From NCBI GenBank assembly GCA_020444275.1, contig JAHLLG010000004.1, positions 124,001-188,000 on the forward strand: 64,000 bases of DNA, in the 5' to 3' direction. The stretch is from Bacteroidota bacterium (GTDB lineage Bacteria; Bacteroidota; Bacteroidia; Bacteroidales; UBA12077). Below, one piece after another: positions 50,427 through 64,000 of this stretch. Both the position numbers and the translations under genes were made by a program. The stretch's first letter is position 1. Each line of letters begins with the position of its first letter. The notes below the pieces were generated by a model that saw only the letters and a program-made list of their open reading frames with translations, was not told where the DNA came from and ran no database searches.

Positions 50427-50500
50427 GGGCCCATAGCTCAGCTGGTTAGAGCACCTGACTCATAATCAGGGGGTCCCTGGTTCGAGCCCAGGTGGGCCCA
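50427..50500 (+). tRNA. tRNA with CAU anticodon (Met elongator or Ile2)
   Basis: The 74-nt gene folds as a complete cloverleaf: acceptor GGGCCCA with TGGGCCC, D-stem GCTC/GAGC, anticodon stem CCTGA/TCAGG with loop CTCATAA (anticodon 50461-50463), T-stem CCTGG/CCAGG with TTCGAGC, discriminator A. CCA is not encoded. It is not the initiator type. CAU reads as Met, or as Ile if the C is changed to lysidine; sequence alone does not decide. A terminator follows at 50515. Confidence 0.92.
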
Positions 50501-50514
50501 CAGGCAATAAAAAT

Positions 50515-51751: not shown

Positions 51752-52660
51752 ATGGAAAAGAAAAGTTTAAATAACATACAGGAATGGTATAATAATCCGA
51801 GTGATGATTTAAAATATTCAAATTGGAATGACTATATATCATGGATGAATAGGAGAATTTTTGAACAAAAACCATCAATACGGGATAAAGTTAACAAGGT
51901 AGAAGAACCAAAAAAAAATCTGAAATCAGGAGGATTATTTACCTATTCTATGATTAAGAAAATAAAAGCTGAAACAGATTTTGAAAAAGGAATCGAATCT
52001 ATAAATGGACCCAAATGGAATGATGTTTATATAGTAATCAGTATTTTTACTGAACATCTCTTGAAAAGATTTCATCCAAACCATAGTTTGTCTGTAGAAG
52101 ATATTAGCTGGGATTGTTTCACCTATCTCTATTTGAAAGGTTTCTTCGCAAAATATGACAAAAAAAAATCATCAAAATGGACTTGGGTTGCATTTGGTGT
52201 TAAAAACTACTTAATTGATTTAGAAAGGAAATATAAGAAGGAAAAATATTTTCTAAGGGATTCTGAATTAGTATTAAAATTATTAGATAACGATTCTGAT
52301 CCATATATTAATTTAGATAGAAAAATGATTCTTTTCATGTTAGAAAATATCTGTCCAGAACTTGCTGGACAGATTAAATTCCGCACTAAGCCTAAATTTG
52401 TTCAAATAAGCAAAACCCAAAAAGTTATGCTATCAGAATATATTGTTATTCATTTGTATCTTGCTGGATATAATTTCAAAACGATTTCTAGGTTTTTCAA
52501 GGTAACCCCTAAGTATATTAGTATTCTCTTTGAAAGAGGAGTTAATCAACTAAAAAGCATGAATTTATCTCTTAAACTTGATCATGATGAACCCTTTCCT
52601 TACATTTATGATAATAAACTATTAAAATTAATCACTACACTCAACAAACGCATTTTATAA
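51752..52660 (+). CDS. Divergent sigma-70-like protein
   Basis: In this 302-residue protein, the middle part SVEDISWDCFTYLYLKGFFA, then KWTWVAFGVKNYLIDLERKYKK, has the pattern of sigma region 2 (core binding and -10 recognition). The part EYIVIHLYLAGYNFKTISRF, then FKVTPKYISILFERGVNQLK, matches the region 4 HTH. The N-terminal 100 residues are not typical. It lies 27 nt after the unknown gene, in the same direction. It may serve an element-specific promoter. No anti-sigma gene is adjacent. Confidence 0.6.
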   Translation: MEKKSLNNIQEWYNNPSDDLKYSNWNDYISWMNRRIFEQKPSIRDKVNKVEEPKKNLKSGGLFTYSMIKKIKAETDFEKGIESINGPKWNDVYIVISIFTEHLLKRFHPNHSLSVEDISWDCFTYLYLKGFFAKYDKKKSSKWTWVAFGVKNYLIDLERKYKKEKYFLRDSELVLKLLDNDSDPYINLDRKMILFMLENICPELAGQIKFRTKPKFVQISKTQKVMLSEYIVIHLYLAGYNFKTISRFFKVTPKYISILFERGVNQLKSMNLSLKLDHDEPFPYIYDNKLLKLITTLNKRIL

Positions 52661-53198
52661 CTCATAGAATTTCTTATACTTACAATAATTGAATCATTTT
52701 TTTACAATTCTTATTTCATTTTTGACTACATTCTTACGTATCTTATTAGCACCAGTTATTAATAGGAATAGTGGGAGGTTGATTCCTAATTTAATAATTA
52801 TTCTAATCTATTCACAGAAATTATAATTTACTAATCTAGAATATACAATTGAATAGCAATAGATAAGATAATCGTAAAATGAAGATTTCTTTTGGCAATA
52901 GCTGCAACATAAAGAATTATTTACCTTTTAACAAGTACCTTTATTGTTAGGTAATAGTTGCTATATGTAGGACATTATTTAATGTCATCCTTCCAGAAAG
53001 TATAAAGTAGGAATCATTATTTTAAAAGTTACTTGGTGAGATATTTGTTTATGTTGCAGCTAGAGGCAAGAGAAGTGTTCCAAAGAAAATAGCAACAGAT
53101 AATTAAATCATTCAATAACTACAAATGAAAACAATGGTGACAACCCGACTTAAAGGTTCACTAGTTAAAGTTCGCTTCGCAATTATGATTATATACTG
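52661..53198. other. Noncoding stretch with several hairpins before the RM operon
   Basis: No gene is seen. Structured parts include AGGAAT/ATTCCT (52764-52787), a longer arrangement in which GCAAC and TTACCT (about 52905-52926) can pair with AGGTAA and GTTGC (about 52950-52960), and GACATT/AATGTC (52971-52986). A small RNA or attachment region is possible; nothing proves either. Confidence 0.35.
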
Positions 53199-53235
53199 AA
53201 GCTCTGTTTTAAATTGAAAGAACAGGGCTTTTTTT
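53199..53235 (+). terminator. Terminator upstream of the RM operon
   Basis: AAGCTCTGTT (53199-53208) pairs with AACAGGGCTT (53221-53230), with one wobble, followed by T to 53235. With no gene directly before it, it may end a transcript from the noncoding region or from the sigma-like gene. Confidence 0.7.
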
Positions 53236-53273
53236 GTAGAATTCAACAACTAAACAAACTTATTTCATATTTA

Positions 53274-53344
53274 GTAGAACTTATACTAAGATAAATATTT
53301 GCAATTTTAAAATATTTGTTTATCTTTGTAGAAATTATACTAAG
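53274..53344 (+). repeat. Direct repeat flanking the RM promoter
   Basis: GTAGAACTTATACTAAG (53274-53290) recurs as GTAGAAATTATACTAAG (53328-53344), 16 of 17 nt identical, 54 nt apart. One copy lies upstream of the -33 box, the other at the transcription start. This is a plausible pair of operator sites. Confidence 0.55.
53298..53328 (+). promoter_or_regulatory. Promoter of the type I RM operon
   Basis: TTTG (53298-53301) and TATCTTTG (53321-53328), spaced by 19 nt, are a full Bacteroidota -33/-7 pair. Transcription would start near 53335, so the first gene must begin after that. Confidence 0.75.
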
Positions 53345-53351
53345 AAATAAA

Positions 53352-53924
53352 TTGGAAAATAGAATTAAAGACATAGCGATTGTTCAATCTGGAATGTATG
53401 CCAAAACAGACAAGTATGGTGATGTAATATATTTACAGGCAAAGCATTTTGATGAAAAAGGAACAGTAAAACCTTTGCTTCATCCTGATTTAAGAATGGA
53501 TGGAAAAATCAAAAACCATTTATTGAAAGATGGTGATTTGCTGTTTGCAGCAAAAGGAGCTAAAAATTTTGCCATAATTTATAGAGATAGGTTTGGTCGA
53601 GCTGTCGCTTCATCTACCTTTCTTGTAATTCGAGTAAAGCCTAATTATCAAAAAATAATTTCACCTGAATATTTAAAATGGTTTCTGAATCGTCCAGATT
53701 GTCTGCGTTTTTTACAAAGTGGTGCAAAAGGTACCGGTATTCCTTCGATATCTAAAGTCTTTATTGAAGATTTAAAGATAGATATTCCATCTATGCATAC
53801 TCAGGAAATCATTTTGGAAGTACATAAGTTAAGGGAAAAAGAAAAAGACATTAAACAACAAATTGAAGAATTAAAAGAAAAAGAAATTCAGTATAAACTA
53901 AAGATAGCTGCTAAAAAAGATTAA
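53352..53924 (+). CDS. hsdS: Half-size HsdS (single target-recognition domain)
   Basis: The protein is about 190 residues long and begins LENRIKDIAIVQSGMYAKTD, the usual start of an HsdS target-recognition domain. It runs through one TRD and ends in one coiled-coil spacer helix (about 160-190). I chose TTG 53352 because the longer frame from 53316 lies inside the promoter and no ATG fits without losing the domain start. HsdM begins 3 nt after the stop. A single-TRD subunit can work as a dimer or swap with the full HsdS of this operon. Confidence 0.75.
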   Translation: MENRIKDIAIVQSGMYAKTDKYGDVIYLQAKHFDEKGTVKPLLHPDLRMDGKIKNHLLKDGDLLFAAKGAKNFAIIYRDRFGRAVASSTFLVIRVKPNYQKIISPEYLKWFLNRPDCLRFLQSGAKGTGIPSISKVFIEDLKIDIPSMHTQEIILEVHKLREKEKDIKQQIEELKEKEIQYKLKIAAKKD

Positions 53925-53927
53925 AAT

Positions 53928-55499
53928 ATGAAAAATAAAATTTCACAAAAGGAAATTAATAATATTGTTTGGAAAGCTTGTGATACTTTTAGGGGTGTTA
54001 TTGACCCTAGTCAATATAAAGATTACATTTTAACAATGTTATTTCTAAAATACGTTAGCGATGTACATAAAGATAAGTTTAAGAACTATTTAGATAAATA
54101 TAATGGAGATACAGATCGTGCAGAGCGAGCTATGAAACATGAACGTTTTGTAGTTCCTAGCCATTGTTCATTTTATTACTTATATCAAAATCGTAATGAA
54201 GCTAATATAGGTGAACTTATTAATATTGCTCTAAATGATTTAGAAGAAGCAAATCGAGAAAAGCTAAGTAGCGAAGATGGTTCTGGTATTTTTAGAAATA
54301 TTGATTTCAATAGTAGCAATCTTGGTGATATTAAAGATAAAAACTCAAGATTAAAAAACCTACTTATAGATTTCAATGATGACAAACTCAATTTAAGTCC
54401 TTCATATCTTGAAGGCGCAGACATAATTGGAGATGCATACGAATTTCTTATTTCAAATTTTGCCAGTGATGCAGGTAAAAAGGCTGGTGAATTCTTTACT
54501 CCTGCTGAAATTTCTACCCTATTAGCGAAATTAACGAAATCGAAACCCGGCGCAAGAATATACGACCCAACTTGTGGCTCTGGTTCATTGCTAATAAAAG
54601 CTGGTAAAGAAGTAGGCTCAGAGAATTTCTCACTATATGGTCAAGAAGCAAATGGTAGTACATGGGCATTAGCTGTAATGAATATGTTTTTGCATGGTTT
54701 TGACAATGCTAATATACGATGGGGTGATACTATAAGGAATCCAAAACATAAGGAAGATGATGCCCTTATGAAATTTGACACTGTAGTTGCAAACCCTCCA
54801 TTTAGTCTTGATAAATGGGGTAAAGTTGAAGATAAAGAAGATAAGGAAAAAGCTAGCACAAGTTTTGATCCAGAGAAAGATAAATACAATCGATTCTGGC
54901 GTGGTGTTCCTCCAAAAAGCAAAGGAGACTGGGCATTTATTACTCACATGATTGAATCAGCCTATGAAGGACATGGGAAGGTAGGAGTTGTTGCCCCTCA
55001 CGGTGTTTTATTTCGTGGTGCATCAGAGGGTAAAATACGTCAAAAAACTATTGAAGAAAACATTTTGGAAGCTGTTATTGGCTTACCAGCAAACTTATTC
55101 TTTGGTACCGGTATTCCTGCAACCATACTTATTTTTAATAAAGGCAAAGATAAAAACACAAATGTATTATTTATTGATGGTAGTAAAGGTTTTGAATCAG
55201 GCAGAAACAAAAACAATTTACGGACTAAGGATATTGAAAAAATAGTCGAAACTTATCAGAAGTTTACTAATGGGAAACTTGGTTCAGGTGTAATAGAGGA
55301 ACGTTTCAGTTATTCCGCTACTCTTGAAGAACTAAAGGAGAATGATTTTAACCTGAACATTCCTCGATATGTTGATACATTCGAAGAAGAACCAGAAGTT
55401 GATATAAAAGATGTACAATCCGAAATAACAACTCTTGAAAAGGAATTAGTAGATGTACAAAATGAAATGGCTAAATATCTAAAAGATTTGGGAATATGA
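53928..55499 (+). CDS. hsdM: Type I restriction-modification DNA methyltransferase HsdM
   Basis: The 523-residue N6-adenine methyltransferase has an N-terminal helical HsdM domain. SAM-binding motif I is DPTCGSGSLL (from residue 213) and the catalytic motif IV is NPPF at 289-292. The length fits. It methylates host DNA together with HsdS and protects it from HsdR. The stop overlaps the GIY-YIG gene (ATGA at 55496-55499). Confidence 0.96.
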   Translation: MKNKISQKEINNIVWKACDTFRGVIDPSQYKDYILTMLFLKYVSDVHKDKFKNYLDKYNGDTDRAERAMKHERFVVPSHCSFYYLYQNRNEANIGELINIALNDLEEANREKLSSEDGSGIFRNIDFNSSNLGDIKDKNSRLKNLLIDFNDDKLNLSPSYLEGADIIGDAYEFLISNFASDAGKKAGEFFTPAEISTLLAKLTKSKPGARIYDPTCGSGSLLIKAGKEVGSENFSLYGQEANGSTWALAVMNMFLHGFDNANIRWGDTIRNPKHKEDDALMKFDTVVANPPFSLDKWGKVEDKEDKEKASTSFDPEKDKYNRFWRGVPPKSKGDWAFITHMIESAYEGHGKVGVVAPHGVLFRGASEGKIRQKTIEENILEAVIGLPANLFFGTGIPATILIFNKGKDKNTNVLFIDGSKGFESGRNKNNLRTKDIEKIVETYQKFTNGKLGSGVIEERFSYSATLEELKENDFNLNIPRYVDTFEEEPEVDIKDVQSEITTLEKELVDVQNEMAKYLKDLGI

Positions 55500-56059
55500 T
55501 AACGGTTAAATATGAAGATATAAAGGATATACATCCGCAGGAATTTATTCTGAAACTAAGTAAAGAAAGTAAGAAGAAGTTTAAGGAGATTACTGTTAAC
55601 GATTTTATTGAAAAAGAGAATTTATCAAAATCTTTTATAGATATAAATTATACTGAGATATTTACTTATGGTGTTTATTTATTCTTTAATCAAAATCAAG
55701 AAGTTGCCTATGTCGGAAAATCAAAAAATGGATTTTACGATAGACTAATGGGACAAAAAAACACACGTTTTAAAAAACATTGGGGCTGGAACACAATTCT
55801 TCAAAAAATTGCAATGAATGTTCATGGAAAAGAATATGATAATCTAACGGATAATGATTTAAAAGAAAGTCTTGAAGTGCTTGAGGACTATTCTTTAATT
55901 TTAATTGAAGTGCAAAATAATAGTGTTCCAATAGGTAGGTTGGAAGGTTTATTAATGCGAGCTAGCAACTTTATTTGGGGCAATAGCCTTTTAAACAATT
56001 CGAAAACCAAACTTTATAAACGTGAAGTCAATAGCACAATTCAAGAAATTCTATCTTAA
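55496..56059 (+). CDS. GIY-YIG-like nuclease within the RM operon
   Basis: The 187-residue protein has a GIY-YIG-like core: G59-V-Y for the first motif, A71-Y-V-G74-K-S for the second, Arg at about 83, and a downstream Glu in RLEGLLMRA. The N-terminal 50 residues are not recognised. It overlaps hsdM by 4 nt and precedes the full hsdS by 12 nt, so it is an integral part of the operon. A role in restriction or in control of the system is inferred from position. Confidence 0.75.
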   Translation: MITVKYEDIKDIHPQEFILKLSKESKKKFKEITVNDFIEKENLSKSFIDINYTEIFTYGVYLFFNQNQEVAYVGKSKNGFYDRLMGQKNTRFKKHWGWNTILQKIAMNVHGKEYDNLTDNDLKESLEVLEDYSLILIEVQNNSVPIGRLEGLLMRASNFIWGNSLLNNSKTKLYKREVNSTIQEILS

Positions 56060-56071
56060 CTAACAAACGTA

Positions 56072-57271
56072 ATGCAAACATTAAATAAAAATAGAAAAGG
56101 ATATAAAGAAACAAAAGTTGGTTGGATACCTGTTGATTGGGAGGTGAAAACAATATCAGAAGCATTTCAAATTTGCAATCACTTACGATATCCAATTAGT
56201 CAAGAAGAAAGAAGTAAAATACAGGGGGATTATCCATATTATGGACCAACAAAAATTCAAGACTATATTAATGAATATAGATTGAATGGGACTTATGCTT
56301 TACTTGGGGAGGATGGAGATCATTTCTTAAAGTGGAAAGAGCAACCTATGACTCTATTAGTCAGTGGTAAATTCAACGTAAACAATCATGCTCATGTTAT
56401 AAAAGGTGTTGAGAATCTTACTGAATGGTTTTTTTATTACTTTAATCACAAGCCTTTAACTCCATATTTAACTAGACAAGGTGCAGGTAGGTATAAACTT
56501 ACAAAAGATTCATTAAAATCAATCCCTTGCGCTATACCTAAAGTTAATGAGCAGAAGAAAATTATTCAATTAATTAGTAGTTGGGATAAAGCAATTGAAC
56601 TAAATAGAAAATTGATCATTCAAAAAGAGCTACAAAAAAAGTGGCTAATTAAAGTGCTTTTGACAGGCAAACAAAGATTGAATGGTTGTAATAATGATTG
56701 GAGCTTTATACGATTCAAAGAAATTTTTAGTCCTATAAAAGAAAAAGCAAACGGTCGAATATTTAAAATACTATCTGTTACAAAAGAAGGTATAATTTCC
56801 CAATCAGATTATTTTAAAAAAGAAATTGCAAGTGAAGATACTTCAAAATATTTAGTTGTTCGAAAAGGGAATATGGTAATGAGTGGGTTGAATTTTTGGA
56901 TGGGATCAATAGATGTTTTATCAAAATATGAAGAAGGAATTGTTTCCCCTGCTTATAAAGTCTTTAAAATCTACAATCAAGACATATCAATAGATTTTAT
57001 GAAATTTTTCACAAGAAGTGAAATAATGAAAAAAGCATTAATTGGCTCTTCTGTTCAAGGAGCAAGTATTGTAAGGAGAAATCTTGACAATGAAATTCTA
57101 CAAGAGTGGGATTTTTATTTGCCAAATCTTGCTGAACAAGAACAAATAGCTAAAGTACTTCAACTTGCTGATAAAGAAACTGAATTGCTTCAAGTAAAAT
57201 TAGATAGCTTAATCAGTCAGAAAAAGGGATTAATGCAACAACTTCTTACGGGTAAAAAAAGATTGCACTAA
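56072..57271 (+). CDS. hsdS: HsdS specificity subunit, two target-recognition domains
   Basis: The 399-residue protein has the full HsdS plan: TRD1 (about 14-160) starting KVGWIPVDWEVKTISEAFQI, a coiled spacer ending LLTGKQRL (near residue 207), TRD2 (about 210-355) and a second spacer ending LLTGKKRLH. The two halves end in nearly the same motif, as expected for the internal repeat. It determines the bipartite recognition site. Confidence 0.95.
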   Translation: MQTLNKNRKGYKETKVGWIPVDWEVKTISEAFQICNHLRYPISQEERSKIQGDYPYYGPTKIQDYINEYRLNGTYALLGEDGDHFLKWKEQPMTLLVSGKFNVNNHAHVIKGVENLTEWFFYYFNHKPLTPYLTRQGAGRYKLTKDSLKSIPCAIPKVNEQKKIIQLISSWDKAIELNRKLIIQKELQKKWLIKVLLTGKQRLNGCNNDWSFIRFKEIFSPIKEKANGRIFKILSVTKEGIISQSDYFKKEIASEDTSKYLVVRKGNMVMSGLNFWMGSIDVLSKYEEGIVSPAYKVFKIYNQDISIDFMKFFTRSEIMKKALIGSSVQGASIVRRNLDNEILQEWDFYLPNLAEQEQIAKVLQLADKETELLQVKLDSLISQKKGLMQQLLTGKKRLH

Positions 57272-57327
57272 AAACAAGACGAATGAAAGATTTAATAAAG
57301 AAATAGTATTTATTATAAAAAGAGATT

Positions 57328-57552
57328 ATGACAAGATTAGAACTATTACAACGTATTTCAAAAATTCATGCAATTAAATGCAATAAAAGCTTATCTGACA
57401 AAGATGCTATTGATTCATTTAATACATTAAATGAATTCAGAAGTAATATTGAAACAGGAGTGTTAAAAGATATTGAAGCAAGAATCAATAAATGGCAAAG
57501 CGAATCTCCTGTTGCTTCAAATTATGAAATTGAATTACTTTTAACTAAATAA
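57328..57552 (+). CDS. Hypothetical 74-residue protein in the RM operon
   Basis: A small, mostly helical, charged protein beginning MTRLELLQRISKIHAIKCNK. No domain recognised. It stands 56 nt after hsdS and 4 nt before the DUF2188 gene. Regular spacing supports real expression. It may be a small regulator or inhibitor of the system. Confidence 0.55.
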   Translation: MTRLELLQRISKIHAIKCNKSLSDKDAIDSFNTLNEFRSNIETGVLKDIEARINKWQSESPVASNYEIELLLTK

Positions 57553-57556
57553 GATT

Positions 57557-57793
57557 ATGACAAAAAGAAAAACAAGACATGTAGTTTCAAATCCTGATGG
57601 AGGATGGAGCTCAAAAAAAGGAGGAGCAGATAGAGCTTCTAAAAATTTTGAAACAAAAAAGGAAGCTGAAAAATACTCTCGTGACCTTAGTAGAAAAGAA
57701 GGTTCTGAACTAATTATTCATGGCAAAGATGGTAAAATTCAAAGATCAGATAGTCATGGTAACGACCCTTGTCCTCCAAAGGATAAGAATTAA
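57557..57793 (+). CDS. DUF2188 family protein
   Basis: The 78-residue protein follows the DUF2188 pattern closely: HVVSNPDGGWSSKKGGADRA, then FETKKEAEKYSRDLSRKEGS, then HGKDGKIQRSDSHGNDPCPP. The fold is predicted to be a small beta-alpha-beta unit. Its role is unknown. Members often lie next to restriction or defence genes and mobile elements. It sits between the 74-residue gene and the helicase-nuclease gene. Confidence 0.85.
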   Translation: MTKRKTRHVVSNPDGGWSSKKGGADRASKNFETKKEAEKYSRDLSRKEGSELIIHGKDGKIQRSDSHGNDPCPPKDKN

Positions 57794-57821
57794 TCATTAA
57801 TTAAAATTCTATGTTTCTTCC

Positions 57822-60800
57822 ATGAAAGATTTGAAAGATATATTAAAAACCCGACTGGTCAGGAGTGATCATAATCAGGGTCTATTATTACTAAACTTGC
57901 CAACAGGTTTTGGAAAAACGCACTATGTAATAGAATATCTTGCTGATAGCATTAAATCAAATAGTAGTAAAAAGATTTGGTTTATCACAGACATAAAGAA
58001 TAATCTTCCATGGAAGAAACTTAAAAATAAAATTGGTAAAGAAAAGTTTTATCAACATTGTTTGTTTCTTGATGCCTACACGGAAAGTGTAAAAAGTTAT
58101 ATTCATAATAATAGTGATGATTTACCTAAACCTTTTAGGAATTGGGTTTCATGGCCACCTTTGAAACGTTGGGCAAAAGCTCATGCAAATGCACAAGAAA
58201 ATGGTGATAAAGAATTTGAAAGATATGCCTATGAAAATTTATGTAGGTATGAACAAGAATTTCGAAAACAACTTAGAAAGTTCTTATCTGATAAACTAAA
58301 AGGAGAAAGAGGATATACTTTAAAGCTTAATAAACTGCGCACAGATAAAGATTTACAGTGGATTATTGAAATGTATCCATCTGTCCGTTATTTTGAAACA
58401 AACATCTATTTCTGTTCAGTTAAAAAGTTTTATCACAATATTGATACAATCATTGATAACAATATCACAATTACTGATGATGAGAACATCAAGGGGAATA
58501 TTGTTTTCATTGATGAATTTGATGCAACAAAGTCAGACTTAATTGATTTGATCATTGATAATTCTATTTCCATTAATCAAGATATTCTGGGAATGTTTAC
58601 GGTTATTAACAATGGTTTACAATCCAGAGGATTTCCTTCTTATTTATTTAATGATAAAGAGACAAAGGAATACAAAGGTTTAAAAGAACGTTTTAATAAG
58701 TGTGTTAAAATGTTTCAATCTGTATATTCAGAATATCAATTTAACAAACACTTTTTCTATACTGTTGACCCAGAAGAAAGAGTTTTCCTATTTAATGACT
58801 CAACATACCACACTGTTTCCTGCAAAGATGATGAATCAATTGGGAAAATTCTATCAATAGATTATTCTGGAACTAAAAACCAAATTTATCTAGATAATAA
58901 AATTCCAACAAACGAAAAGAATAATTTACTATATCTAATTAATTATGTCAGAGGATGCTTAAACACTTTTGCATTTCTTATAAACGCTATTGCTAAAACA
59001 TATACTGAAATATCTTCAAAACAAAGCGAAGAACAAGAAAGCGAAGTGTCTAAGCTTAGTCCTGATAATGCTGTAAGAACAATACTTGACTTGTTTGATG
59101 TCAGAGAAATTAATATTCAGAACTATATCCTAACAGTCATTTTTCAAAAAGTGAGAAATGAGTCAAAATCACTTGATTTTGATAATTCTCCTTTAGCAAA
59201 TGGTTTTAGATATTATGACCTGTTGAATCAGCCAGTTCATAATGAAACGTGTAGGTTAATGTATAATGATACAGTTACTACTCCAGAAGCTTGGTTAATA
59301 AATTTATGCAGCAAAGCTATGGTAATAGGAATTTCGGCAACAGCAGGGTTTGATTCTCCCCTCTCAAACTACTATTTATCTTATATTAAACATCATTTAG
59401 GTAACGATTTCCACTCACTTAACTCTAATGAAGAACTGATACTGCATAAGAAATTTGAAGATTTAAATAGCTTACGGCATAAGAATAAAATCAAAGTTAA
59501 ATGTATTGATTCGGATTTACATGAACCAGTCAAGAATTTAGAACGACTAATCTCAGATAAAGAGATTTGTTCTCACATAAACGAACTCGTTTTTAATGGT
59601 ATTGAAGAAAAGAACTTTGCTCAGAACAGATACCTTAAACTGGCAGAGGTCTATAAATACTACATTGAGAACAACATTAAATCAATGCTTGTATTGTCAA
59701 ATAGACTACCTAAAGATTATTTGAATGATGATTTCAATTTTGATAAGCTTAAAGAGTTACTTTCAGAAGTTCGATCAAAAGTAAGAGGTGAATCAATTGA
59801 ATTATCTAGAAAACAAGTAGAGAATGAAGTATATAGATTAAATTCTGATGAATTCAAAAAGCAATATCACGAAAACATTAAGCTGAAGTTAGAAAAGGGT
59901 GAAAATGTATTCTTGATATCATCTTTTAGAACACTCGGAGCTGGTCAAAACTTGCAGTATAAAAAACCCAAAGGTATTGATATAGTAAAGATCAATAATT
60001 TAGATTATGAAGGTGATGAAAAAGATTATGATGCAATATATATAGAAAAACCTACCTATCTGTTTTCATGGTTTTCTGATGACACGCTCTTAACACACAA
60101 AGATTTACTTAAGTATGTTTTTGAGCTAGAATATTTATATCATAGTGGTATTATTGATTATTACGACAAAAAAGAAAGAATTAAGTTTGCCTTTAAAAGA
60201 TATCATCAATTCGGTATCCGAACACCTTATAACAAACACCTTTTGGAGCATCCTAAAGTAGCTCAACACGCAGCTCGAACTATAATTCAAGCCGTTGGTA
60301 GACTTTCAAGAGCGAATTACAAATCCCCTACAACTCATATTCTTTATGATATTGGTATAAAAGATTACCTGAAGAATTTTAAAAAAGATCAATTCTTACT
60401 AATTGAAGAATTTAAAGCTCTTTATGACCATTGTGTAACTACTGCAACTCCTGAATATAATGAGAGCCAAAATATTTCTGTTGTCAATAGTCTTCTATTG
60501 GCTCAACGTTTAGAAAGTTTAGTGAGTAATATTGGAAGCTGGAATGAACGAATAATAGAAGTGTGGAAAAACATGAGAGAGCATGTATTAAAATTCCCTA
60601 CAGCATCAAATAAAGAACTATCTCAAATAAAAGGAATTTCTGAATATTATCTGAAAACTTATAATTCAGAACCTATTTCCCAGTACACATATTCAACCAA
60701 AGATGATTTTAAAACAGATTTACAAATATTCTACAATGATAAAGGTGAGAATCATGTTTCAAAGGAATCTGCTAGATTAGATAAAATATTTAAAATACCA

Positions 60801-61271
60801 GGTGTAAAAGATCTTTTTATAAAAAATGAATATGCTACTCAATTTATACCTAAAGAATATATTATATCACCACCATTATATAGGAATATTTATCTTGGCG
60901 CATTAGGTGAAGTTGTAGGTAAACATATTTTAGAAACTTACATCCCAGACATAAAACTATACGATCTGCCATTAGCTATTTATGAGTTGTTTGACTTTAA
61001 AGTTAATGATGCTATATATGTTGACTTTAAATACTGGAAAGAAACTACCATTATTGATAATTTCCGTGAAAACGAAAGAATAAAGGATAAAATGCAAAGG
61101 GTTAATGCTCAAAACGTTATTGTGATAAATATTCTTGCAAAAATAAGTAGTTATGAAATTCAAGAAAAGGATGGAATTATTCAGATTCCTTATCTGTGGA
61201 ACTTTTCAAAAAATAGAGTAAATAATAATGCCATTAATAAGATAAATCAGATATTAGATGAATTCAAATAA
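57822..61271 (+). CDS. Superfamily 2 helicase fused to a PD-(D/E)XK-like nuclease domain
   Basis: In this 1149-residue protein, Walker A is PTGFGKT at 27-33 and Walker B DEFD at 231-234. Motif III-like ISATAG follows, and motif VI QAVGRLSRA starts at 823. The C-terminal ~150 residues look like a PD-(D/E)XK nuclease: E1030 in GALGE, D1058 in LFDFKV and D1068-F-K1070 in IYVDFKYW. No DUF1998 or HsdR features were seen. It should be a DNA or RNA translocase with nuclease activity. Its stop overlaps the next gene by 14 nt. It lies inside a type I RM operon. Confidence 0.8.
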   Translation: MKDLKDILKTRLVRSDHNQGLLLLNLPTGFGKTHYVIEYLADSIKSNSSKKIWFITDIKNNLPWKKLKNKIGKEKFYQHCLFLDAYTESVKSYIHNNSDDLPKPFRNWVSWPPLKRWAKAHANAQENGDKEFERYAYENLCRYEQEFRKQLRKFLSDKLKGERGYTLKLNKLRTDKDLQWIIEMYPSVRYFETNIYFCSVKKFYHNIDTIIDNNITITDDENIKGNIVFIDEFDATKSDLIDLIIDNSISINQDILGMFTVINNGLQSRGFPSYLFNDKETKEYKGLKERFNKCVKMFQSVYSEYQFNKHFFYTVDPEERVFLFNDSTYHTVSCKDDESIGKILSIDYSGTKNQIYLDNKIPTNEKNNLLYLINYVRGCLNTFAFLINAIAKTYTEISSKQSEEQESEVSKLSPDNAVRTILDLFDVREINIQNYILTVIFQKVRNESKSLDFDNSPLANGFRYYDLLNQPVHNETCRLMYNDTVTTPEAWLINLCSKAMVIGISATAGFDSPLSNYYLSYIKHHLGNDFHSLNSNEELILHKKFEDLNSLRHKNKIKVKCIDSDLHEPVKNLERLISDKEICSHINELVFNGIEEKNFAQNRYLKLAEVYKYYIENNIKSMLVLSNRLPKDYLNDDFNFDKLKELLSEVRSKVRGESIELSRKQVENEVYRLNSDEFKKQYHENIKLKLEKGENVFLISSFRTLGAGQNLQYKKPKGIDIVKINNLDYEGDEKDYDAIYIEKPTYLFSWFSDDTLLTHKDLLKYVFELEYLYHSGIIDYYDKKERIKFAFKRYHQFGIRTPYNKHLLEHPKVAQHAARTIIQAVGRLSRANYKSPTTHILYDIGIKDYLKNFKKDQFLLIEEFKALYDHCVTTATPEYNESQNISVVNSLLLAQRLESLVSNIGSWNERIIEVWKNMREHVLKFPTASNKELSQIKGISEYYLKTYNSEPISQYTYSTKDDFKTDLQIFYNDKGENHVSKESARLDKIFKIPGVKDLFIKNEYATQFIPKEYIISPPLYRNIYLGALGEVVGKHILETYIPDIKLYDLPLAIYELFDFKVNDAIYVDFKYWKETTIIDNFRENERIKDKMQRVNAQNVIVINILAKISSYEIQEKDGIIQIPYLWNFSKNRVNNNAINKINQILDEFK

Positions 61272-63405
61272 ACATTATATAAATCAGTTCGACTTTCAGT
61301 ACAATAAAGAGTTGATTCATAGAGATTTTGAAATTCTAGTGTTCAGAAAATCCGAAGGATATCTTTCTTATTATGAAATGATTTTTGATACACTTCTAGA
61401 AAAAAATTTAAAAGCTGTTTCTGTTTGCTTCTCATCAGGAAATGAAGCTTTTGCATTATATGAAAAATCATCTTCTGTAAACTTAGTCAATGAAATAAGA
61501 AAAACCTTACTAAGTGAATCCAAGCCTGATATTATTGTTGAGCAACTTGACATCTTAAATTTTGACAATAAAAAAAAGTATAAGCTATTTCAATTGTTTC
61601 TTAACGCATGTTCCAACAGTCAATCAGATAGGTTTTCCTTTAATAATATTACAGGAAGACTTCTCGTTTCCAGTCACTTAATGGCAAATTCATTTAAAAA
61701 ACAAAGAAAGGCACTTGAAATAAAAGTTAATTATGATAATTCCATTAATCTTGATGTAAGAACATTAACATCATTAAAACGATATAATGATTTTCTTAAA
61801 GGAATATCTCAAAAAGAAGTTAAAAGAAAAAAAGAACAACTTAAAAAAATACCAAAATATGAAATTATAAAGGCTACAGGTTGCTTCAAAAGAGTGTTTA
61901 ACAATGAAAAGGTTAAATTAGACGAACAATATGTAATATTGAAACCTGCAATTGATAATAAAAAAAGCAGTATTGATTTCTTTTCATTAAATCCTAAAGC
62001 TTATGAATTAACTAAGATTGGAATATTAAATAATGTTCTTATTAACCTACATAATCAATTTGGTGATTATTTATCTGTAAATCAAAAATTTTATAGTTCA
62101 GAAGATGTTATTAATGAATCTTTTAAAGCTAATCAAGAAATAGTTTTACAAAATTTACAGGATAACATATTTCTTGTTAATAAAACTAATGACAGTGAAA
62201 TATTTGAAGAAATTTTTAACAAATTAAAGTCATTAAATATCCAATTAAAAAAATCTTCAAAGATTAAATCAACACAACCTAATATACAGCTAATCCATGA
62301 TAAAGAATACTACCAAAAATATTATTCAAAGGATTTATATCAGAAATCTACAAGCGACACTCCTATTCAAAATTTAACATTGCAGCAATTCATTAATTAT
62401 AAAAAGACATCGAAAACCACAGAACCATTGCTATTTAAGATTTTAAATGAGTTAAGTATCAAAAATAATATTTGTAAAAAAAGAATAACATTATTTGATT
62501 GGGAAAGCCTAGGGATGCCTTATAAAATACACCTTGGTTATAAAAAAGTAGATTATATAAAAGATGAAAAGCAAGAAACATTTTTCTTTCTTACAATTTA
62601 TCCTGATGGTTATCTTGAATATAATGCACTTACTCCTAATCTTTTTTCAAGTGAACTACACTGGAAGTTATTAGAAATTTATAAAAGCTATAATTATTGT
62701 AAAGATAAAATTGAAGCAGTAATTATTACAGATAATGGAGATGTTAACTTAATATTGAGAACGAATTTCCAAACCTATCCAGACTTAAAAGGAGTTAATG
62801 GATATGTTATGGAAGGAGTTGATGTCAAAGATTTTAATATTAGTAAAGAAAACCTTTTAAAAAAGATTGAGACTTTCATAAATGAAAATGACGAAGAGAA
62901 AATTAATCCTATAAAAGAATTTAAGAAAATAATTATCTCAAATCCGTCTGATAACATTGATGGTGAATTTCTTGTTAACGAATATAAAAAACTTGGTAAG
63001 TCAAAAATCATATTTGAGTTTAATAAATACTTCAAAGACATATTTAATGTTTGGCTAAGACATGCAGTTAAGAATAAAGAAGTTACAGAAAAATACTACA
63101 GTGCTTTAGTTGATATTTCAATTGCCAAAACTCATGAAGGAGTCTTTTATTGGGCAAATAAAGCGATGAAAGATACTCAAGGGAAATTCTTAAAATCAAA
63201 TATAATTAGAAAGATCGAAGTTGTTCAAGGTGAAGAATTTTCCTTAAAATTATTAATGAAGACATTAAATGTAGCTTTTGTAAGAATAAATGCCCCAACA
63301 GTACTTCCGTTCCCGGTAAAGTTATTAAATGAATATGTAAATAATTATGAACGACCTATAATCAATGATACAGGAGACTTTTTAAATAACTTGAAATTAA
63401 AATAA
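61258..63405 (+). CDS. Hypothetical 715-residue partner of the helicase-nuclease
   Basis: A large soluble protein without signal peptide, TM helices or recognised catalytic motif. It is Lys/Asn/Ile-rich. There are two alpha/beta parts (about 1-250 and 400-560, with EAVIITDNGDVNLILRTNF) and a helical C-terminus ending VAFVRINAPTVLPFPVKLL. Its start overlaps the helicase-nuclease by 14 nt, so the two are made together and probably form a complex. A nucleic-acid-binding role is likely but not proven. I do not recognise a family. Confidence 0.65.
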   Translation: MNSNKHYINQFDFQYNKELIHRDFEILVFRKSEGYLSYYEMIFDTLLEKNLKAVSVCFSSGNEAFALYEKSSSVNLVNEIRKTLLSESKPDIIVEQLDILNFDNKKKYKLFQLFLNACSNSQSDRFSFNNITGRLLVSSHLMANSFKKQRKALEIKVNYDNSINLDVRTLTSLKRYNDFLKGISQKEVKRKKEQLKKIPKYEIIKATGCFKRVFNNEKVKLDEQYVILKPAIDNKKSSIDFFSLNPKAYELTKIGILNNVLINLHNQFGDYLSVNQKFYSSEDVINESFKANQEIVLQNLQDNIFLVNKTNDSEIFEEIFNKLKSLNIQLKKSSKIKSTQPNIQLIHDKEYYQKYYSKDLYQKSTSDTPIQNLTLQQFINYKKTSKTTEPLLFKILNELSIKNNICKKRITLFDWESLGMPYKIHLGYKKVDYIKDEKQETFFFLTIYPDGYLEYNALTPNLFSSELHWKLLEIYKSYNYCKDKIEAVIITDNGDVNLILRTNFQTYPDLKGVNGYVMEGVDVKDFNISKENLLKKIETFINENDEEKINPIKEFKKIIISNPSDNIDGEFLVNEYKKLGKSKIIFEFNKYFKDIFNVWLRHAVKNKEVTEKYYSALVDISIAKTHEGVFYWANKAMKDTQGKFLKSNIIRKIEVVQGEEFSLKLLMKTLNVAFVRINAPTVLPFPVKLLNEYVNNYERPIINDTGDFLNNLKLK

Positions 63406-63407
63406 CT

Positions 63408-64000
63408 ATGAATACTCCATCATTCAAAGAAGATCACATTAGCCAAATACCTGCTTTGCAGTTTTTGCAAAATATTGGCTATACATATCTTTCTCAGGAA
63501 GAAGCAATGCAATACAGAAAAGGTAAAACAACCAATATATTGCTTGAAGATATTCTTAGAACTCAGCTAAAAGAAATTAATTCTATTAAAGTCAGTTCTA
63601 CAAAGACAACGGTATTCAGCGATTCAAATATTGAGACAGGTATTGTTGCACTTAAAGAATTACCAATGAATGAAGGGTATATTTCTGCAAGTGAAACCCT
63701 ATATAACTTATTGACACTAGGAAAATCGCTTGAACAAAGTATTGATGGAGATAAGAAAAGTTTTACACTTCAATACATTGATTGGAAAAAACCTGAGAAC
63801 AATGTTTTTCATGTTACAGAGGAATACAACGTAATGCGAAGTACGAGTAAAGATCATTATCGACCTGATATTGTACTATTTATTAATGGTATTCCTGTTT
63901 GCATTATTGAATGTAAACGTCCTGATATGAAGGAGCCTATTCAACAAGCTATTTCACAACATTTAAGAAATCAACATGAAGATGGAATCCGTTCATTATA
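63408..64000 (+). CDS. hsdR: Type I restriction endonuclease subunit HsdR (3' end outside window)
   Basis: The frame opens at ATG 63408, 2 nt after the previous stop, and stays open to the window end (197 codons). The N-terminal nuclease domain shows the PD-(D/E)XK core: D154 in RPDIV and E168-C-K170 in VCIIECKRP. The opening SFKEDHISQIPALQFLQNIG is typical of HsdR N-termini. The SF2 translocase part lies beyond the window. It cuts unmodified DNA in the complex with HsdM and HsdS and closes the operon order S'-M-...-S-...-R. Confidence 0.92.
   Translation, partial: MNTPSFKEDHISQIPALQFLQNIGYTYLSQEEAMQYRKGKTTNILLEDILRTQLKEINSIKVSSTKTTVFSDSNIETGIVALKELPMNEGYISASETLYNLLTLGKSLEQSIDGDKKSFTLQYIDWKKPENNVFHVTEEYNVMRSTSKDHYRPDIVLFINGIPVCIIECKRPDMKEPIQQAISQHLRNQHEDGIRSL

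Follow-up and report, generated by a model that had tools for sequence, protein, structure and literature searches.

A diverged DdmDE-like gene pair between hsdS and hsdR of a Bacteroidales type I restriction-modification operon

The operon and its genes

The window, the whole 64,000-nucleotide stretch of DNA that was analysed, ends in an intact type I restriction-modification (RM) operon in which hsdM, hsdS and hsdR are all present and co-directional. The first gene (53316..53924, +) encodes a half-HsdS with one target-recognition domain and a coiled coil (Methylase_S, 2.5e-9). It is followed by the methyltransferase subunit gene hsdM (53928..55499, +; TIGR00497 hsdM, 297 bits for a cutoff of 243), by a GIY-YIG-like nuclease gene that occupies the hsdM-hsdS slot (55496..56059, +; PF01541, E=0.0013, under the curated cutoff) and by hsdS for the full-length specificity subunit (56072..57271, +; PADLOC Specificity_I, E=2e-62). 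A 74-aa open reading frame (ORF) at 57328..57552 (+) is known from the ORF call alone: the family search (Pfam, NCBIfam and PADLOC) gave no notable match, and the ORF is absent from related operons. The next gene (57557..57793, +) encodes a DUF2188 protein (PF09954, 3e-22) that is also the PADLOC candidate PDC-S16 (1.6e-33). This DUF2188 gene lies directly 3' of hsdS, and a related operon (L075) has a 55%-identical copy in the same position.

Two large genes, here named ddmD (57822..61271, +; 1149 aa) and ddmE (61258..63405, +; 715 aa), fill the space up to hsdR. They overlap by 14 nt and contain no internal stops, and only 2 nt separate ddmE from hsdR, which starts at 63408 (63408..64000, +, within the window; PF04851 above cutoff). 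Read past the end of the window, hsdR is complete, with 1075 aa in total and a PD..ECK nuclease motif. Across the whole operon all genes are on the + strand with intergenic gaps of -14 to 56 nt. An earlier note on this DNA had placed two intact ORFs of 1149 and 715 residues between hsdS and hsdR, and its coordinates are exact, the two being co-directional and tightly packed. The GC content of the operon is 25-35%, ddmE being the lowest among the large genes (25%).

A candidate Bacteroidota-type promoter, TTTG-N19-TAnnTTTG, was found at the operon head (53298..53328, +), and no second match on the same strand occurs from 52501 to 64000. Since about 3.4 matches to this pattern are expected by chance per 64 kb on both strands, the match is only weakly above chance. 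The TTG start listed for the half-hsdS falls within this promoter candidate, and the true start is probably further downstream. Gene spacing and this weak promoter match suggest that the type I enzyme and the two inserted genes probably share transcripts. A search for insertion scars gave no notable repeats shared by the two ends of the cargo block. A tRNA-Met gene upstream of the operon (50427-50501) is a possible island edge.

Identity of the two proteins

Neither the 1149-aa nor the 715-aa protein has a useful match in Pfam, NCBIfam or PADLOC. When the 1149-aa helicase was searched with phmmer against the sequences of solved structures, it matched DdmD (9ix4_A) at 4.4e-48 over residues 13-1120; the match to the Vibrio cholerae DdmD was 4e-26. 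We aligned six DdmD homologues, from this genome, two Nostoc, a Bacteroidales MAG, Persicobacter and Cetobacterium, and mapped the helicase and nuclease residues. In the Walker A motif P27-T-G-F-G-K32-T33 (57900..57920, +), T28, G29, G31, K32 and T33 are invariant, as are D231, E232 and D234 of the Walker B or DExD-type motif D231-E-F-D234 (58512..58523, +). S505-A-T507 is conserved across the six, and helicase motif VI, Q823-x-x-G-R827-x-x-R830 (60288..60311, +), is invariant. The same holds for the PD-(D/E)XK core E1030, D1058 and D1068-x-K1070 (60897..61031, +), whose residues line up with the nuclease end of the solved V. cholerae DdmD (GALGE..ERFD..DsK). Judged from the alignment, the conservation of helicase and nuclease residues is far beyond chance, and the protein is predicted to end in a PD-(D/E)XK nuclease with its catalytic residues in place. 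The fusion of an SF2 helicase with a C-terminal PD-(D/E)XK domain, proposed in the earlier note on the basis of the same residues, is thus upheld.

The 715-aa protein is more diverged. As a single sequence searched against solved structures it matched DdmE at 6.9e-7; a five-homologue profile searched against the PDB matched DdmE 9iw3 at 7e-30 and the V. cholerae DdmE at 1.4e-22. The identity to the solved DdmE proteins is low, the Pfam Piwi model did not detect the protein, and an AlphaFold2 model built from three sequences reached a pLDDT of 47. The Argonaute fold of the 715-aa protein is therefore inferred from the solved homologues.

The earlier note had taken the 715-residue protein to lack a recognised domain and the pair to match no known system. 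The latter is wrong: the two proteins match solved DdmD and DdmE by sequence, DdmDE being a system that the note had not listed, and the profile of the partner matches the Argonaute-like DdmE. The note had itself named a result that would refute its reading, a clear match between the 715-residue protein and a known defence family that has a helicase partner; DdmE is such a match. A new two-gene system is ruled out by the PDB matches to both proteins. The note was right that the pair differs from Hachiman, DISARM, Druantia, Zorya and Gabija, for which neither protein has a PADLOC match at E up to 1; a Cas3-like helicase was rejected as well, with a weak PADLOC match only.

The known DdmDE systems of V. 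cholerae (VPI-2, VC1770-VC1771) and Lactobacillus casei are the same two-gene operon of a helicase-nuclease and an Argonaute-like partner. Sequence similarity with the pair in the window extends over most of both proteins, at about 20-30% identity among aligned homologues. The pair adds a diverged member to this known system, in an unusual location, and a DdmDE this diverged escapes the Pfam, NCBIfam and PADLOC profile libraries. Long inactive prokaryotic Argonautes (pAgos) are catalytically dead and rely on a partner nuclease, as this DdmE would by homology; it differs from them in being missed by the Pfam Piwi model and in having its own partner, DdmD.

Type I operons, their cargo and inactive Argonautes

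Known DdmDE stands alone, whereas the pair in the window is nested between hsdS and hsdR. In V. cholerae, ddmDE (VC1770-71) lies beside, not inside, a type I RM cluster (VC1765-69), as judged by locus tags (PMC11411939). We found no DdmDE nested in an hsd operon in the open-access literature searched. The ddmD and ddmE homologues of cyanobacterial, Bacteroidales and Persicobacter loci are adjacent and co-directional, and overlap or nearly do so. We examined the flanks, about 10 kb or as far as the contig reaches, of eleven further DdmDE-like loci: two Nostoc, a Bacteroidales MAG, Persicobacter and Cetobacterium plasmids, Paraperlucidibaca and five genomes of the same order. None contains a homologue of HsdM or HsdR, so that DdmDE does not depend on a type I operon nearby. 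Nesting occurred in a single case and the distribution of DdmDE is patchy. Searches of the phylum with single proteins, and a scan of viral contigs, gave no further relatives; a profile was needed.

Relatives of the operon itself were taken as loci of the same order with HsdM at 56-80% identity. Gene order in this subfamily is fixed: half-hsdS, hsdM, slot 1, hsdS, slot 2, hsdR. The half-hsdS lies directly 5' of hsdM in 15 related operons and is thus a conserved part of the subfamily. Slot 2, between hsdS and hsdR, holds 0.5-6.7 kb of cargo in all but one (L079, without any) of the 16 measurable relatives, almost all of it co-directional with the operon. The cargo includes CBASS parts, a long pAgo, SLATT_5, DUF3800, Schlafen-AlbA, Fic, PDDEXK_3, HAD and DUF2188 genes. 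In one locus (L071:5532-11549, -) CBASS components are split over both slots, with the CD-NTase between hsdM and hsdS and the HNH-SAVED effector between hsdS and hsdR. In another (L076:6113-12571) the hsdS-hsdR slot carries a long pAgo (Piwi 5e-17; EcAgo in the PDB, 9.8e-75). The pAgo precedes a 298-aa protein that seems to have transmembrane segments, and a Ser/Thr kinase and DUF3010 are in the same slot. More distant type I operons are without the half-hsdS yet often have cargo. The hsd operons of this order are carriers of exchangeable defence modules, and the proposal that a two-gene defence module is embedded in the type I operon was borne out by the homology to DdmDE and by the operon genes.

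Other hsd operons are already known to contain embedded genes: rlo/mlo of Campylobacter (PMC5183652), prrC (PMC12707154) and GmrSD/TgvAB (PMC11411939). TgvAB of V. cholerae VPI-2 is also a two-gene defence system between hsdS and hsdR; it differs in being a type IV restriction system like GmrSD, with no relation to DdmDE (PMC11411939). The accessory genes of the Campylobacter (PMC5183652) and E. coli prrC (PMC12707154) operons include no Argonaute module in the available portions of these sources.

The pAgo in this slot of L076 prompted a survey of every Piwi match in 324 genomes of the order, which gave 20 loci (L131-L150, L135 being the same region as L076). HsdM or HsdR lies within 10 kb at 12 of these 20, some flanks being under 10 kb and the profiles having been derived from the same order; about ten are co-directional, operon-like arrays. 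Three have the order hsdS-hsdR-pAgo or hsdM-hsdS-hsdR-pAgo, with hsdR-pAgo gaps of 29 nt (L132), 11 nt (L133) and 4 nt (L143); L144 has pAgo-hsdM-hsdS-hsdR with 21 nt between pAgo and hsdM, and L135 has the slot position. Control AbiEii loci of the same Piwi-bearing genomes had type I RM genes in none of 20 cases (Fisher p 4.5e-5, a statistic from one order, related proteins and a single control family picked once the pattern had emerged). In all 20 Piwi proteins G replaces the first catalytic Asp, and all keep the MID pocket residues Y-x3-K, Q and K. HsdS was already among the proteins of pAgo operons in Ryazansky et al. 2018 (PMC6299218). In one of the type I operons a GmrSD-family (type IV restriction) gene lies immediately 3' of the pAgo (L140:7399-9513, -).

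Proposed function and alternatives

Very probably, the hsdS-hsdR slot of this type I operon carries a diverged DdmDE module for plasmid defence as cargo. Homology, intact active-site residues, full-length ORFs and operon packing are what the sequence shows, and DNA-guided plasmid elimination is, by homology, the most likely function. DdmE of DdmDE systems generally is a pAgo without catalytic activity; it uses DNA guides and recruits DdmD, which translocates on ssDNA and cuts plasmid DNA (PMC12409362). By homology, the Argonaute-like, catalytically inactive DdmE of the window would bind short DNA guides and then pair with plasmid DNA. It would recruit DdmD, which would load onto the displaced strand; the SF2 motor would translocate and the C-terminal PD-(D/E)XK nuclease would cut or nick, leading to plasmid loss.

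The default reading is that the type I enzyme and DdmDE are probably independent of each other. They could form complementary layers, RM acting against unmethylated incoming DNA and DdmDE against established plasmids. Since related operons hold unrelated cargo in the same slot and the 11 other loci have no RM neighbours in the flanks examined, the pairing of DdmDE with RM is modular.

To our knowledge, the source of the guides of DdmE and other inactive pAgos, and the way in which plasmid is told from chromosome, are not settled. One alternative is that the DNA ends and single strands that HsdR generates on unmethylated invaders supply DdmE with guides, so that methylation would set self and non-self. 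The position of DdmDE within the hsd operon, 2 nt from hsdR, is in line with such coupling, as are the frequency of type I genes near Piwi loci compared with the AbiEii loci and the loss of the first catalytic Asp in Piwi proteins that keep the guide-binding residues. The 11 DdmDE-like loci without a type I operon next to them and the many non-Argonaute genes in the same slots speak against it, and we consider it unlikely. A joint system in the order at large, in which HsdR restriction of unmethylated DNA would supply guides and the inactive Argonaute would recruit DdmD, or HsdR itself in the hsdM-hsdS-hsdR-pAgo operons, is quite unlikely; if true, it would turn sequence-specific restriction into a guide-directed system. 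Given DdmDE in a type I operon and the local association of pAgo with type I genes, restriction as a source of guides or of a nuclease is a testable idea.

By analogy with PrrC, which is encoded in a type IC locus and activated on EcoprrI inhibition (PMC12707154), the embedded DdmDE might serve as a back-up, set free or triggered once an anti-restriction protein blocks the type I enzyme. This is very unlikely, as the V. cholerae DdmDE is active without embedding, DdmDE is normally not embedded, and no PrrC-like sensor domain was found.

ApsAB of E. coli ST38 is, like the pair in the window, a helicase-nuclease with an Argonaute-like partner; it is an anti-plasmid system, and ApsA and DdmD belong to one broad family (PMC11096173). 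That the pair is of the ApsAB type is highly improbable: the match of its partner to solved DdmE spans most of the protein, whereas ApsB, which carries a MID-like Y-x3-K..QG..K motif, is reportedly not similar to DdmE in sequence (PMC11096173), and the 1149-aa helicase is near DdmD (1190) in size and far under the much larger ApsA (over 1435). A chance neighbour without functional role in a decaying defence island, a reading that the single nested case and the patchy distribution would allow, is likewise highly improbable with both ORFs at full length, all catalytic residues kept and the operon genes intact and tightly packed.

With the pair read as DdmDE, the expected target is plasmids, so that the phage challenge proposed in the earlier note is a less suitable test to begin with. 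The DdmDE-like pair of Persicobacter (L012:12360-18364) lies on a plasmid beside parA/parB; this plasmid, which also has type II CRISPR-Cas genes, is itself a plasmid bearing an anti-plasmid system.
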